Program-made: the position numbers and the translations under genes
Assembly (NCBI GenBank): GCA_024643425.1
Contig: JAHEMY010000008.1
Span: 1-45,918 of the forward strand
DNA: 45,918 nt
Source of the DNA: Flavobacteriaceae bacterium
GTDB taxonomy: Bacteria; Bacteroidota; Bacteroidia; Flavobacteriales; Flavobacteriaceae
Reading direction: 5' to 3'
The notes under the pieces: model-generated
The model's input: the letters and a program-made list of their open reading frames with translations, nothing else
Told to the model about the DNA's origin: nothing
Databases searched by the model: none
Part shown: one piece after another, positions 11,199 to 40,548 of the stretch
How the letters are laid out: every line of letters starts with the position of its first letter
How positions within the stretch are numbered: position 1 is the stretch's first letter

Positions 11199-12236
11199 AT
11201 GAAGATTTTTTCAGCAGTTTTGTTAGTGCTCATATGCATCGCTTGCGGACAAGACCGACCGTCTTTTAGTGAGGTTGAAATAACACCTATTTTTCAGGAT
11301 TCTTTGAGTATACGGGCTATTGTTCCTATTGATGATCAAAGTGTTTGGTTCGCAGCGAACCGCGGTATGGTAGGGCTCATAGATGGAGACACCCCGAAGC
11401 TTGCGAACATTAAGTACGACGATTCGTTATTGCATTTTCGATCAATTGCCATGGTGAAGAATGCTGTTTTTGTATTAAGTATCGACAATCCTGCCGTTTT
11501 GTATAAAATAGATTTTGAAGGCAAGGAAGCCACTCAAATTAAAGAGGTTTATTATGAAGAAGGTGAAGGTGTTTTCTATGATGCCATGAAATTTTGGAAT
11601 GACGAGGAAGGAATCGCTATGGGCGATCCGCAAAATGGCTGTCTCTCTATGTTAATTACGAGAGATGGAGGAAATACGTGGAATAAAGTGTTATGCAATA
11701 ATCTTCCACCAATAGAAGAAGGCGAAGCAGCTTTTGCAGCCAGTAATTCAAACATTGCAATTCAAGGGGAGCACGCTTGGATTGCCACCGGCGGCAAACG
11801 TGCTCGAGTATTTCATTCGGCCGATAAAGGTATGACCTGGGAGGTGTTTGATACACCTATGGTTCAGGGGCGCACCATGACAGGAATATACACTATCGAT
11901 TTCTACAATAAAAAGCGTGGGGTAATCTTCGGTGGTGATTGGGAGCAGAAAGGTTTTAATGAGGGAAATAAAGCCATCACCAACAATGGGGGAAAAACCT
12001 GGAAATTAATTTCCAATGGAGCAGGACCGGGCTACCGATCGTCTGTGAAGTTTGTTCCGGGAAGTGATGGGGATGAATTAATTGCCGTGGGTTCACCTGG
12101 AATATCGTATAGCGATGATGGGGGTGAAACGTGGATAGAACTGTCAAAAGAGGGCTTTTATGCTGTGGAATTTGTGAACGACACGGTTGCCTTTGCCAGC
12201 GGTCATCAAAGAATTTCGAAACTCGTATTTCGCTAG
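11199..12236 (+). CDS. BNR-repeat β-propeller lipoprotein
   Basis: A 345-residue lipoprotein: a short hydrophobic leader ends in a lipobox with Cys16 (LICIAC). The body carries repeated Asp-box/BNR motifs of a YCF48-like or sialidase-like β-propeller: SMLITRDGGNTWNKV, VFHSADKGMTWEVF, AITNNGGKTWKLI and ISYSDDGGETWIEL. Flavobacterial relatives are often labelled 'oxidoreductase' without evidence. No redox cofactor motif is visible, so I leave the function open; a periplasmic binding or assembly scaffold is possible. The stop codon directly abuts the stop of the convergent gene. Confidence 0.8.
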   Translation: MKIFSAVLLVLICIACGQDRPSFSEVEITPIFQDSLSIRAIVPIDDQSVWFAANRGMVGLIDGDTPKLANIKYDDSLLHFRSIAMVKNAVFVLSIDNPAVLYKIDFEGKEATQIKEVYYEEGEGVFYDAMKFWNDEEGIAMGDPQNGCLSMLITRDGGNTWNKVLCNNLPPIEEGEAAFAASNSNIAIQGEHAWIATGGKRARVFHSADKGMTWEVFDTPMVQGRTMTGIYTIDFYNKKRGVIFGGDWEQKGFNEGNKAITNNGGKTWKLISNGAGPGYRSSVKFVPGSDGDELIAVGSPGISYSDDGGETWIELSKEGFYAVEFVNDTVAFASGHQRISKLVFR

Positions 12237-13188: not shown

Positions 13189-13743
13189 TTAAAAGGTTTC
13201 ATTTTTTAATGCCTGTGTTATTTTTTTGACCGCGATATGATAACTGCTCTTTAGCCCGCCTACTGAAGTTTCCAGAATTTCGGATAGTTCTTCATAGGTG
13301 AGGTCGTCAAAATATTTCATATTAAAGATTAGACGCTGACGCTCGGGTAGTGCTGCAATGGCTTTCTGTAATTTAAGCTGGATGTCTTCGCCTTCAAAAT
13401 AAACATCAGTCTCAAGTTTGGAAATTGCTAGTTGTTGTACTTCCTCCGTGGAGATAAGCATTTTTTTAGCCTTTTTATTGATGAATGTGATGGACTCGTT
13501 GGTGGCAATGCGGTACATCCATGTATAAAGCTTACTGTCTCCTTTAAACTGATCAATATTTCGAAATATTTTGATAAAGGTATTCTGAAGGACGTCATCG
13601 GCATCATCATGATCCAACACAATTTTTCGGATATGCCAATACAAACGTTCTTTGAACTCGGAAATAAGATCGCGAAAAGCTGCTTCCTTGTGATGCTCGC
13701 TTTTGAGTCCTTCAATAAGGGCCGTTTCTTCTATCAAGGGCAT
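13189..13743 (-). CDS. ECF-type RNA polymerase sigma factor
   Basis: A 184-residue sigma-70 family factor with region 2 at about 20-95 (DADDVLQNTFIKIFRNI, then YTWMYRIATNESITFI) and region 4 at about 125-180 (ALPERQRLIFNMKYFDDL, YEELSEILETSVGGLKSS). It lacks regions 1 and 3, as in the ECF group. It is first in a three-gene minus-strand operon with the anti-sigma and Spy-like genes, so it probably responds to envelope stress. A weak -7-like TACCTTTA lies just upstream on the minus strand, at 13752-13759. Confidence 0.92.
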   Translation of the reverse strand: MPLIEETALIEGLKSEHHKEAAFRDLISEFKERLYWHIRKIVLDHDDADDVLQNTFIKIFRNIDQFKGDSKLYTWMYRIATNESITFINKKAKKMLISTEEVQQLAISKLETDVYFEGEDIQLKLQKAIAALPERQRLIFNMKYFDDLTYEELSEILETSVGGLKSSYHIAVKKITQALKNETF

Positions 13744-13897
13744 AGTTTAAAGGTATGACTTTTAAGAATTGAAATGGTTTAAATGAAAAGTGGAGCAAAG
13801 ACAAAAAAGGCACTATAAAATCGATTAAAAACAAAAAATACCGATAAAAAACATTTTTTCTTTATTTGTAGGAAAATATTTACTAGATTTACGCAAT

Positions 13898-13985
13898 ACT
13901 TCTTATGTATAGGTTCTTTGTTATCAGCCCCAACTGTAATGAGAACTGATTAAACGGGCCTAAGCGGGGGCTGGCCCGTTTTTTA
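13898..13985 (+). ncRNA. Candidate small RNA 1 (upstream member of tandem pair)
   Basis: The 480 bases from 13744 to 14223 have no credible protein gene. The first half holds a candidate RNA of about 88 nt. A weaker promoter (TTTA at 13861, 19 bases, TAGATTTA at 13884-13891) would start it near 13898. It begins with CTTATGTAT (13902-13910). A first hairpin, 13913-13946, has a GTTCT/AGAAC base and an inner CAG/CTG stem, and exposes CCCCAA (13928-13933). A terminator closes it: a 9-bp stem AAACGGGCC/GGCCCGTTT (13952-13981) and a T-run. The order of parts matches the second candidate at 14132-14219. The start is predicted, not mapped. Confidence 0.6.
13952..13984 (+). terminator. Intrinsic terminator of candidate small RNA 1
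   Basis: AAACGGGCC pairs perfectly with GGCCCGTTT over 9 bp, followed by a T-run. The 12-base loop contains GGGGGCT, complementary to the AGCCCC in the first hairpin of the same RNA and in the second small RNA. Confidence 0.85.
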
Positions 13986-14095
13986 TTTCCTTTTCAATTA
14001 TAAACCAAATCATGTTTAATCTGTAAGAAATAACGTACTTTATAGTAGTTTCTTATCGATGAAATGCACTTATTATAGATAAAATGCAAAAAATA

Positions 14096-14126
14096 TTTGG
14101 TAAATTGAAAAACTGTACTATCTTTG
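14096..14126 (+). promoter_or_regulatory. Consensus promoter of candidate small RNA 2
   Basis: TTTG (14096-14099), exactly 19 bases, then TATCTTTG (14119-14126): a complete match to the Bacteroidota primary sigma factor consensus TTTG-N19-TAnnTTTG. No coding region begins downstream on this strand before the terminator at 14186, so the transcript should be non-coding. Confidence 0.8.
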
Positions 14127-14131
14127 AAGTG

Positions 14132-14219
14132 TACTTATGTATTAATAACTATTTCATTGTGTGCCCCAAATGCAATGAAAAACTTAAAGAAGCGGAGCCC
14201 CAACCGCTTCTTTTTTTTT
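14132..14219 (+). ncRNA. Candidate small RNA 2 (downstream member of tandem pair)
   Basis: A predicted RNA of about 88 nt from the consensus promoter to a strong terminator. It opens with CTTATGTAT (14134-14142), as in small RNA 1. The first hairpin is a perfect 8-bp stem TTTCATTG/CAATGAAA (14152-14180) with a 13-base loop holding GCCCCAA (14163-14169). The second is the terminator, whose loop AGCCCCAA repeats the same C-rich motif. The only open frames are a few codons long. It could be a trans-acting regulator; a match to a described flavobacterial RNA family (for example Flavo-1, Rfam RF01705) is possible, but I cannot test it. Confidence 0.7.
14186..14219. terminator. Terminator of small RNA 2, abutting the ABC exporter gene
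   Basis: A 10-bp stem AAAGAAGCGG/CCGCTTCTTT with loop AGCCCCAA and a T-run through 14219. The convergent ABC transporter gene stops at 14224, and the A-rich left flank could also let the hairpin end that transcript. Confidence 0.88.
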
Positions 14220-14223
14220 GTCC

Positions 14224-16050
14224 TTATGCCAAGGATTGCATTTCCACCAGGTTGTAGTACGTACCTTTCTTAGCGAGCAGTTCGTGATGTTTTCCTTGTT
14301 CAACGATCGAACCTTTCGAAAGGACCACAATATTATCGGCACTTTGAATGGTCGAAAGTCGGTGCGCAATAACCACGGAAGTTCTATTTTTCATCATGTT
14401 CTCTAAAGCATCTTGCACCAGTCGTTCACTTTCAGTATCGAGGGCTGAAGTAGCTTCATCTAAAATCATGATGGGCGGGTTCTTCAATACAGCACGAGCT
14501 ATGCTTAGACGTTGCTTCTGTCCGCCACTTAGTTTATTACCACTGTCTCCTATATTGGTATCAATACCTTGAGGAAGTCCTTGTACAAATTCCCAAGCAT
14601 TCGCAACCTTAAGGGCATCGATAATCTCTTCATCACTTGCATCCTCTTTTGCGACCCTTAAATTCCCTTTCACTGTATCGTTAAAAAGAATGGAATCTTG
14701 AGTAACAAGTCCCATCAATCCCCTTAATGAGTGTAGTGTAATGTCTTTAATATTTGCGTTATCAATTGCAATATTACCCTCGTTTACATCGTAGAATCGC
14801 GTAAGTAAATTGGCAATAGTACTCTTACCACTTCCGCTTTGTCCTACCAAAGCCACTGTAGAACCTTTTGGAACCTTGAGCGAAAAATTCTTCAACACCC
14901 AATCGTCTTCGTATTTAAACGAAACATCGTTTAGGGTAATAGCATCTTCAAAATCCTTTTTAACGGTGGCGTTATTCTTGTCTTTAATGGAGGATTCGGT
15001 CTCTAAGATTTCCAATACTCGTTCTGCCGCGGCATTTCCTTTTTTCACACCATAGCTCGCTTTACTAATTGCTTTTGCAGGAGTGAGGATGTTATACGCC
15101 AATCCCATATAAACGATAAAAGCTTCAGGAGCCAATGTTTTTTCAACCAAAACCATGGAACCACCAAACCACAGCAATATGGCAATAACAACAATTCCTA
15201 AAAACTCGCTAATGGGTGAGGCTAAATTTTGTCGGTGCATTAAGGCATTGGAGTATTTAAAAAAGCGCGCTGTAGATTGCTGAAATTTTTCATTAAACAT
15301 CTTTTCAGCATTAAACCCTTTAATAATTTTGAGTCCGCCCAATGTTTCCTCCAAAATCGATAGAAAGAACCCTTGTTCTTGTTGTACTCGGGTACTTCGT
15401 TTCTTTAAACTTTTTCCTATTCTAGAGATAATAAACCCTGAAACCGGTATGAAAATAAAAACGAACAAGGTTAGCTTAGCACTTAAAATAAGCATGGCGA
15501 TAATCGTAAATAAAATCATCAAGGGTTCTCGAACGATCAATTCTAAAATTGAAAGGAAGGAATGCTGAATCTCTAGAACATCGGTTGAGATTCTTGCAAT
15601 AGTATCGCCTTTTCGTTTCTCGGAATAATACGACACAGGAAGTGCTACTGTTTTTTCATACACTGCATTCCGTAAATCTTTAAGCACACCATTTCGTAAG
15701 AAGGTAATAAAGAACATAGCCAGATAGCCTGATAAATTCTTTAACAAGAAGGTTGCAATTACAATCGAAATCATGATCATAAGAGCATAGAGTTCACCAG
15801 AGGATTCAATTTTTTGGGTGATGAAATAATTCATATACCCCTCAAAATAATCTCCAACATGAGAAATTCCTTCATAGACCGGTGGCTCGGTAATCTTTGT
15901 TGAATTGTCGAACAACACCTTCAGCATGGGCATCAAAGAAACAAAGGCCAATGTACCGAATAAGGCATAAAAGATATTGGCGATAATATTGAGCCAGGCA
16001 AACCTTTTATAAGGTTTTGCAAAGTGTAATATCTTTCTGAAGTATTTCAT
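14224..16050 (-). CDS. MsbA-like ABC exporter (fused permease and ATPase)
   Basis: A 608-residue half-transporter that would act as a homodimer in the inner membrane. The membrane domain with six helices covers about 15-330. The ATPase domain follows, with Walker A GQSGSGKST at 403-411, signature LSGGQKQRLSIARA, and Walker B PIMILDEATSALD. MsbA-family exporters flip lipid A-core, other lipids or drugs. The substrate is not readable here, but the upstream glycosyltransferase and phosphohexomutase genes fit lipid or glycan export. The start ATG overlaps the stop of the upstream mutase gene (TAATG), so the two are almost certainly co-transcribed. Confidence 0.92.
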   Translation of the reverse strand: MKYFRKILHFAKPYKRFAWLNIIANIFYALFGTLAFVSLMPMLKVLFDNSTKITEPPVYEGISHVGDYFEGYMNYFITQKIESSGELYALMIMISIVIATFLLKNLSGYLAMFFITFLRNGVLKDLRNAVYEKTVALPVSYYSEKRKGDTIARISTDVLEIQHSFLSILELIVREPLMILFTIIAMLILSAKLTLFVFIFIPVSGFIISRIGKSLKKRSTRVQQEQGFFLSILEETLGGLKIIKGFNAEKMFNEKFQQSTARFFKYSNALMHRQNLASPISEFLGIVVIAILLWFGGSMVLVEKTLAPEAFIVYMGLAYNILTPAKAISKASYGVKKGNAAAERVLEILETESSIKDKNNATVKKDFEDAITLNDVSFKYEDDWVLKNFSLKVPKGSTVALVGQSGSGKSTIANLLTRFYDVNEGNIAIDNANIKDITLHSLRGLMGLVTQDSILFNDTVKGNLRVAKEDASDEEIIDALKVANAWEFVQGLPQGIDTNIGDSGNKLSGGQKQRLSIARAVLKNPPIMILDEATSALDTESERLVQDALENMMKNRTSVVIAHRLSTIQSADNIVVLSKGSIVEQGKHHELLAKKGTYYNLVEMQSLA

Positions 16051-40221: not shown

Positions 40222-40269
40222 ATGGTTTTTAAGGGGCTTTGGCAAACGATAAATATGTAATTTCGACGT

Positions 40270-40440
40270 GAATTTTGGTTTTTCCTTTTTAGGAAGGAAA
40301 ATTAAAAGGGAATTCGGTGAAATACCGAAGCTGTTCCCGCAACTGTAAGCCGCCCGCAAGGGTAGCACGCTACTTCAAAACCACTGTGCATTGCATGGGA
40401 AGGTAAGTGCGATAGGCAAGCCAGGAGACCTGCCAGATTC
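40270..40440 (+). promoter_or_regulatory. Cobalamin (B12) riboswitch of btuB
   Basis: Clear conserved core: GGGAATTCGGTGAAATACCG, then CCCGCAACTGTAAGC (about 40308-40350) and the B12 box AAGCCAGGAGACCTGCC (40418-40434). GAAT (40270-40273) and ATTC (40437-40440) can close P1. It senses adenosylcobalamin and lowers receptor expression when B12 is plentiful. The 108 bases after it hold possible competing hairpins (see findings). It points only to the plus strand, so btuFCD would not be under it. It fills much of the 338-base gap 40211-40548. Confidence 0.95.
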
Positions 40441-40548
40441 AACAATTTGTCAAACTTTCGGGATAAAGGTTTGGAAATATTAGCGTGTGTTCCAAGAGGG
40501 ACAGTACCTTTTTATTTCTCGCTCTGTTTCCGTTTTAATTTAATTAAA

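Follow-up and report, generated by a model that had tools for sequence, protein, structure and literature searches.

Small RNA (sRNA) regulation in the Flavobacteriaceae, a dominant marine group, is almost uncharted, and bacteria of this type mostly do not use Shine-Dalgarno pairing. The described systems that come closest to the locus studied here are of several kinds. The sX13 RNA of Xanthomonas is an intergenic transcript of ~115 nt whose CCCC loops, carried on stable stems, act on GGGG motifs near translation starts in an Hfq-independent manner (PMC3771888). FopS and GibS of Bacteroides are multicopy sRNAs that are transcribed from housekeeping promoters, perhaps under an additional regulator, and end at an intrinsic terminator (PMC11697453). 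Within the Flavobacteriaceae themselves, Flavobacterium psychrophilum has conserved, structured intergenic sRNAs, the Rfp RNAs, of which Rfp18 is an example (PMC9723704), and Flavo-1 (RF01705) is a structured RNA motif of the family.

The locus lies in the window, by which we mean the whole stretch of DNA analysed (45,918 nucleotides). Two units sit there in tandem on the + strand, each with its own promoter, a single hairpin and an intrinsic terminator. Unit 1 (13896–13985, +) is predicted to give a small RNA of ~88–90 nt and unit 2 (14131–14217, +) a core small RNA of ~86–88 nt; their ends were placed from promoter and terminator, and the units are represented by covariance models built from sequences of the locus (R1 for unit 1; R2 and a broad model, R3, for unit 2). 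A sequence-only reading of this DNA had described two units sharing one plan, and this was borne out. In the window the motif CTTATGTAT is present at 13902 and 14134 and nowhere else (0.38 occurrences expected). Followed after 5 to 35 bases by CCCCAA, it has again just two matches in the complete 2.74 Mb genome, both of them at this locus, and reversed-pattern controls gave none.

Both units fold (z-scores: unit 1, -2.4; unit 2, -5.1), and each RNA would begin with a short single-stranded stretch (CUUAUG), followed by one hairpin and then that of the terminator. Hairpin H1 of unit 1 (13912–13947, +; folding and RNAalifold) has the loop region CAGCCCCAACUG at 13925–13936. The unit-1 terminator (13954–13979, +) folds as ACGGGCC-UAAGCGGGGGCU-GGCCCGU, and its loop, AGCGGGGGCU at 13963–13972, is complementary to AGCCCC. 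In unit 2, H1 (14152–14180, +) is an 11-bp stem with the loop GCCCCAA, supported by covariation in 38 sequences, and the terminator (14188–14211, +; folding and a 59-sequence alignment) carries a second copy of this motif in its loop, AGCCCCAA. Besides this repeat, the sequence-only reading had overlooked that GCGGGGGC, in the loop of the unit-1 terminator, is complementary to the C-rich loops, that twin sites lie upstream of both units and that the locus is conserved across the family; its observation was confirmed and proved larger than claimed.

Compared with the described systems, the units resemble sX13 in working mode only, through their exposed C-rich loops, and no sequence homology is claimed; sX13 comes from an unrelated phylum and has three stems, no tandem partner and no G-rich counter-loop. 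Like FopS and GibS, they are Bacteroidota sRNAs present in several copies with a housekeeping promoter and an intrinsic terminator, whereas FopS uses a single-stranded 5' seed, has the terminator hairpin only and occurs in up to 15 dispersed copies in Bacteroidaceae (PMC11697453). Rfp18, compared by the description of its architecture only, possesses three or more stem-loops, of which the third does the pairing (PMC9723704).

Searches of Rfam release 15, which holds no model for these RNAs, gave just chance terminator-like matches for positions 13740–14240, at gathering thresholds and at E up to 10, and no family at the gathering threshold for 12 divergent relatives. The suggestion that the pair might be a local copy of Flavo-1 was not supported, the RF01705 model matching neither at E up to 10 in this region nor at gathering in the 12 relatives. 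There was likewise no covariance-model match to the 6S RNA of flavobacteria (RF01685), and GibS (RF04182) scored 18.1 bits against a gathering threshold of 115. The sole Rfam match of the window was a cobalamin riboswitch at 40259–40451 (+; 112 bits, cut-off 31.5). The RNA family appears to be new, though its kind, the conserved intergenic sRNA, is known and the Rfp RNAs were compared by description only.

Covariation was very strong in the unit-2 hairpin, and the stem of the unit-1 terminator covaried too. Among 38 distinct sequences of unit-2 H1, 91.4% of pair cells were standard and 10 of the 11 pairs had changed on both sides, with 133 double-change cells where shuffling gave a mean of 36. 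The loop GCCCCAA was almost invariant in this set and the second pair below it was G-U in 31/38, so that the conserved loop context reads G-N-GCCCCAA-N-U, with the G-U pair retained and the neighboring (closing) pair free. An alignment of 59 sequences from both clades, which was fitted to the structure as the 38-sequence alignment was not, had 95.5% of cells pairing and double changes at 16 of 18 pairs. The 16 distinct unit-1 terminators were 96.4% paired, with 7 of 12 pairs double-changed and GCGGGGG invariant. In the full set the last base of GCGGGGGC differs once (L211), and the invariance of this G-loop is partly an effect of ascertainment, because units were collected and classified partly by it. 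The C-rich loop of unit-1 H1 was retained in 33/40 relatives; in the other 7/40, unit 1 had lost its own C-loop and kept the G-loop. Terminator C-loops have been lost in some lineages, for example in L191. The stems differ in sequence and the fold is kept, as the sequence-only reading had claimed.

The ATG within CTTATG, and the frames that are open from it in some relatives, could be taken for small ORFs. These unit-2 frames range from 1 to 41 codons with no conserved reading frame among them, the window copy reads ATG-TAT-TAA, and the CTTATG start is absent in 20 of 84 homologous gaps, mostly in relatives where the unit is present. As frame lengths are not conserved and covariation lies far above the shuffles, we reject the small-ORF reading, and that of chance repeats is refuted by conservation; the chance that either is right is negligible. 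The units are almost certainly real, conserved, structured, non-coding RNAs.

Unit 2 is preceded by an exact match to the Bacteroidota housekeeping-type promoter, TTTG-N19-TATCTTTG (14096–14126, +), the perfect TTTG-N19-TAnnTTTG promoter that had been picked out earlier, and TAnnTTT stands before 81 of 82 unit-2 homologs. The promoter region of unit 1 (13867–13891, +) consists of the box TGTAGGAAAATATTTAC and the -7 element TAGATTTA (13884–13891), which is weaker than the unit-2 promoter. A box of the TGTAGGAA type before unit 1 (13867–13883 in the window) often recurs between the units, and at least one was present in 43/84 gaps.

Upstream of both units lie twin half-sites, GATnAA[A/G], 20–21 bp apart: CGATTAAAAACA ... 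CGATAAAAAACA at 13822–13853 (+) for unit 1 and CGATGAAATGCA ... AGATAAAATGCA at 14057–14088 (+) for unit 2. Both putative regulatory sites match the strict pattern, and their spacing is kept in relatives. Strict matches were found for 62 of 82 unit-2 copies and 26 of 40 unit-1 copies. Where both elements could be located, the second half-site began 41 or 42 bp before TAnnTTT in 57/61 unit-2 cases and 17/22 unit-1 cases. The strict twin pattern occurs five times in the genome, twice at this locus, and reversed controls gave no match. This suggests one regulator common to both units, and the fixed phasing resembles that of an activator site; transcription of each unit would start from a separate housekeeping-type promoter, controlled by a regulator bound to the twin GATnAA sites just upstream. 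The fixed sites point to a predicted transcription regulator with a very small regulon. A twin site also adjoins a gene whose secreted product starts ...QVGIGxxxPxxALDV, both in this genome (L292, 1501–1532) and in the relative G213 (position 848269), and this gene is a possible second member of the regulon. A 7TM-HTH protein encoded downstream of one twin site (L291) was considered as the regulator and is unsupported, having no homolog in the analyzed part of G213 (2.0 Mb, 63% of the genome).

On the sigma side, the divergent neighbor of the RNAs is a gene for an ECF sigma-70 factor (13189–13743, -; PF08281, PF04542 and TIGR02937 above cut-off), which adjoins the RNA locus in most relatives and beyond which lie two genes without a Pfam or NCBIfam match. 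Its ECF-type promoter, AAAC-N17-GTCATA (13754–13780, -), is found as AAAC-N17-GTCnnA in 75/84 homologous gaps, always with a spacing of 17. Because this promoter is kept and the RNAs carry promoters of housekeeping type, the arrangement suggests that the sigma factor is autoregulated rather than controlling the RNAs. At four loci (L207, L209, L232 and L270) the sigma gene is absent beside the RNAs and the exporter gene is present; the RNAs persist without the adjacent sigma gene and are therefore independent of it and not its leader. In L207, L209 and L232, a homolog of the window gene at 11199–12236 (+) directly borders the RNA pair in place of the sigma gene.

On the other side is a convergent gene for an MsbA-like ABC exporter (14224–16050, -; PF00005, PF00664), whose best NCBIfam match, TIGR02203 MsbA at 491 bits, is under its cut-off of 602. 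No gene follows the RNAs in the + direction, in agreement with the earlier observation that no credible protein gene comes after unit 2. The units might instead be leaders, attenuators or terminators of neighboring genes: 12 bases separate terminator 2 from the stop codon of the exporter gene, whose transcript it may also end from the opposite strand. Yet the convergent direction of the exporter gene contradicts an mRNA leader or attenuator, each unit has its own promoter and putative regulatory site, and H1, which a terminator does not need, is the most covarying part. We regard this reading as very improbable. What was found instead, namely an own promoter, an intrinsic terminator, no conserved ORF and a covarying structure, is what is generally looked for in intergenic trans-acting sRNAs and, with no same-direction gene downstream, supports the earlier proposal of a new regulatory RNA pair.

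A DNA search with the whole region identified the locus clearly in one relative only (G012), because the sequence diverges too fast. Searching 300 family genomes by pattern recovered homologs of the same plan in several genera, in the same gap between sigma and exporter genes wherever this was read. With R3 at E up to 1e-5, matches were obtained in 105/300 family genomes and 86/237 genera, and with R1 in 29/300 genomes and 22/237 genera. Among 40 weaker matches whose flanks were inspected, 39 lay beside the exporter gene and 37 beside the sigma gene too. In a 395-genome sample of the class, R3 matched a single genome outside the family (E 8e-6), a plain terminator that looks like a weak chance match. 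A pattern scan of viral contigs gave 120 matches, at chance level, and was dropped. Judged from these matches, the RNA genes persist in much of the marine Flavobacteriaceae. Among the named carriers are Altibacter lentus, Ulvibacter litoralis, Ulvibacter antarcticus, Aureisphaera galaxeae, Halomarinibacterium sedimenti, Aureitalea and Pukyongia. Some carriers are available from public collections as strains (Altibacter lentus JLT2010, Ulvibacter litoralis DSM 16195 and Ulvibacter antarcticus DSM 23424), which makes direct tests possible. An sRNA so deeply conserved, in strict synteny next to an ECF sigma operon and with loops that hardly vary, offers a concrete handle on post-transcriptional control in these bacteria.

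Most members of the family have unit 2 alone, and unit 1 with its G-loop is found mainly in one clade. Judged by its distribution, unit 2 is the widespread core and unit 1 a related companion. On a quick exporter tree of 80 rows, the states of G-loop pair and single unit required four changes, against a shuffled mean of 28. The sister genus g58 has two units without a G-loop. Since L211, a basal row of the single-unit clade, carries the G-loop, loss of unit 1 in that clade is as likely as its gain in the other. The genome G091 has a lone unit-1-like RNA elsewhere (L208, 1501–1575) with promoter, twin sites and G-loop terminator and no C-loop; no unit 2 was visible beside it, and no RNA pair at the exporter locus of this genome.

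The RNA pair probably consists of regulators. Our preferred reading is that the two units are independent, non-coding, trans-acting sRNAs, a family-wide core (unit 2) and a companion (unit 1), which act through their C-rich loops by base pairing, and from the sequence evidence we give this action a probability of roughly 0.5. Each invariant loop (GCCCCAA) on top of a hairpin would be a short seed, antisense to the G-run motifs of a restricted set of RNAs. Of the 137 sites of TTGGGGC, the complement of the loop, in the analyzed 2.0 Mb of G213, 0 fell within the 1695 naively called start regions, where ~2.9 were expected, and TTGGGG was likewise not enriched at starts in this part with the same naive gene calls; the sRNA locus of G213, at 3.15 Mb, is outside it. 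A broad start-codon regulon is therefore unlikely in G213. The loss of terminator C-loops in some lineages is a further point against the preferred reading.

This lack of enrichment would also fit protein titration, in which the repeated hairpins with GCCCCAA would be decoy sites for an RNA-binding protein, as in RNAs of the CsrB type. GCCCCAA is present on both unit-2 hairpins and on H1 of unit 1, and the conserved loop context could equally well be a protein-binding shape: the loop and the G-U pair two steps below it are frozen, the closing pair between them is free and the stems change completely, which makes protein binding a serious rival. With two to three sites per locus, however, the number is far below that of CsrB-type sponges. 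The 2.0 Mb of G213 contained no further GCCCCAA hairpin whose stem reached 7 or more, so that no set of competing mRNA sites was seen. No candidate protein emerged, and a brief screen of the same part for RRM motifs found nothing. We consider titration possible and distinctly less probable than base pairing.

The loop GCGGGGGC of the unit-1 terminator raises a further alternative, that unit 1 serves above all to antagonize unit 2 as a sponge, its GGGGGC loop kissing the GCCCC loops. Predicted duplexes between this G-loop and the unit-2 loops had energies of -11.8 to -14.8 kcal/mol, GCGGGGGC is near-invariant while the surrounding stem covaries, and the G-loop is what unit 1 keeps in the 7/40 relatives where its own C-loop is lost. 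Part of that invariance is ascertainment, though, and H1 of unit 1 itself would be the better partner (-18.3 kcal/mol). Unit 2 stands alone in most family members, g58 has its two units without a G-loop, and a pure sponge role is weakened by the displaced G-loop RNA that G091 retains with no unit 2 beside it or the exporter. A chiefly antagonistic unit 1 is, on balance, unlikely. That the two RNAs pair with each other, and that this is a significant function, is no more probable; it is compatible with trans-acting C-loops, under which reading the G-loop could bind the C-rich loops and may modulate them. Equally tentative is a two-RNA circuit made of a family-wide C-loop sRNA and a neighboring paralog in which evolution turned the terminator loop into a dedicated GGGGGC counter-seed; if true, co-regulated sibling sRNAs would regulate each other through kissing-loop pairing. 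As a minor observation from the same part of G213, two near-identical stretches around ATTTGGGGCAAAAAA-GTAAACTCTC lie at positions 1097718 and 1098971 (L391), in a region without called ORFs, and may be a repeat or a broken gene.
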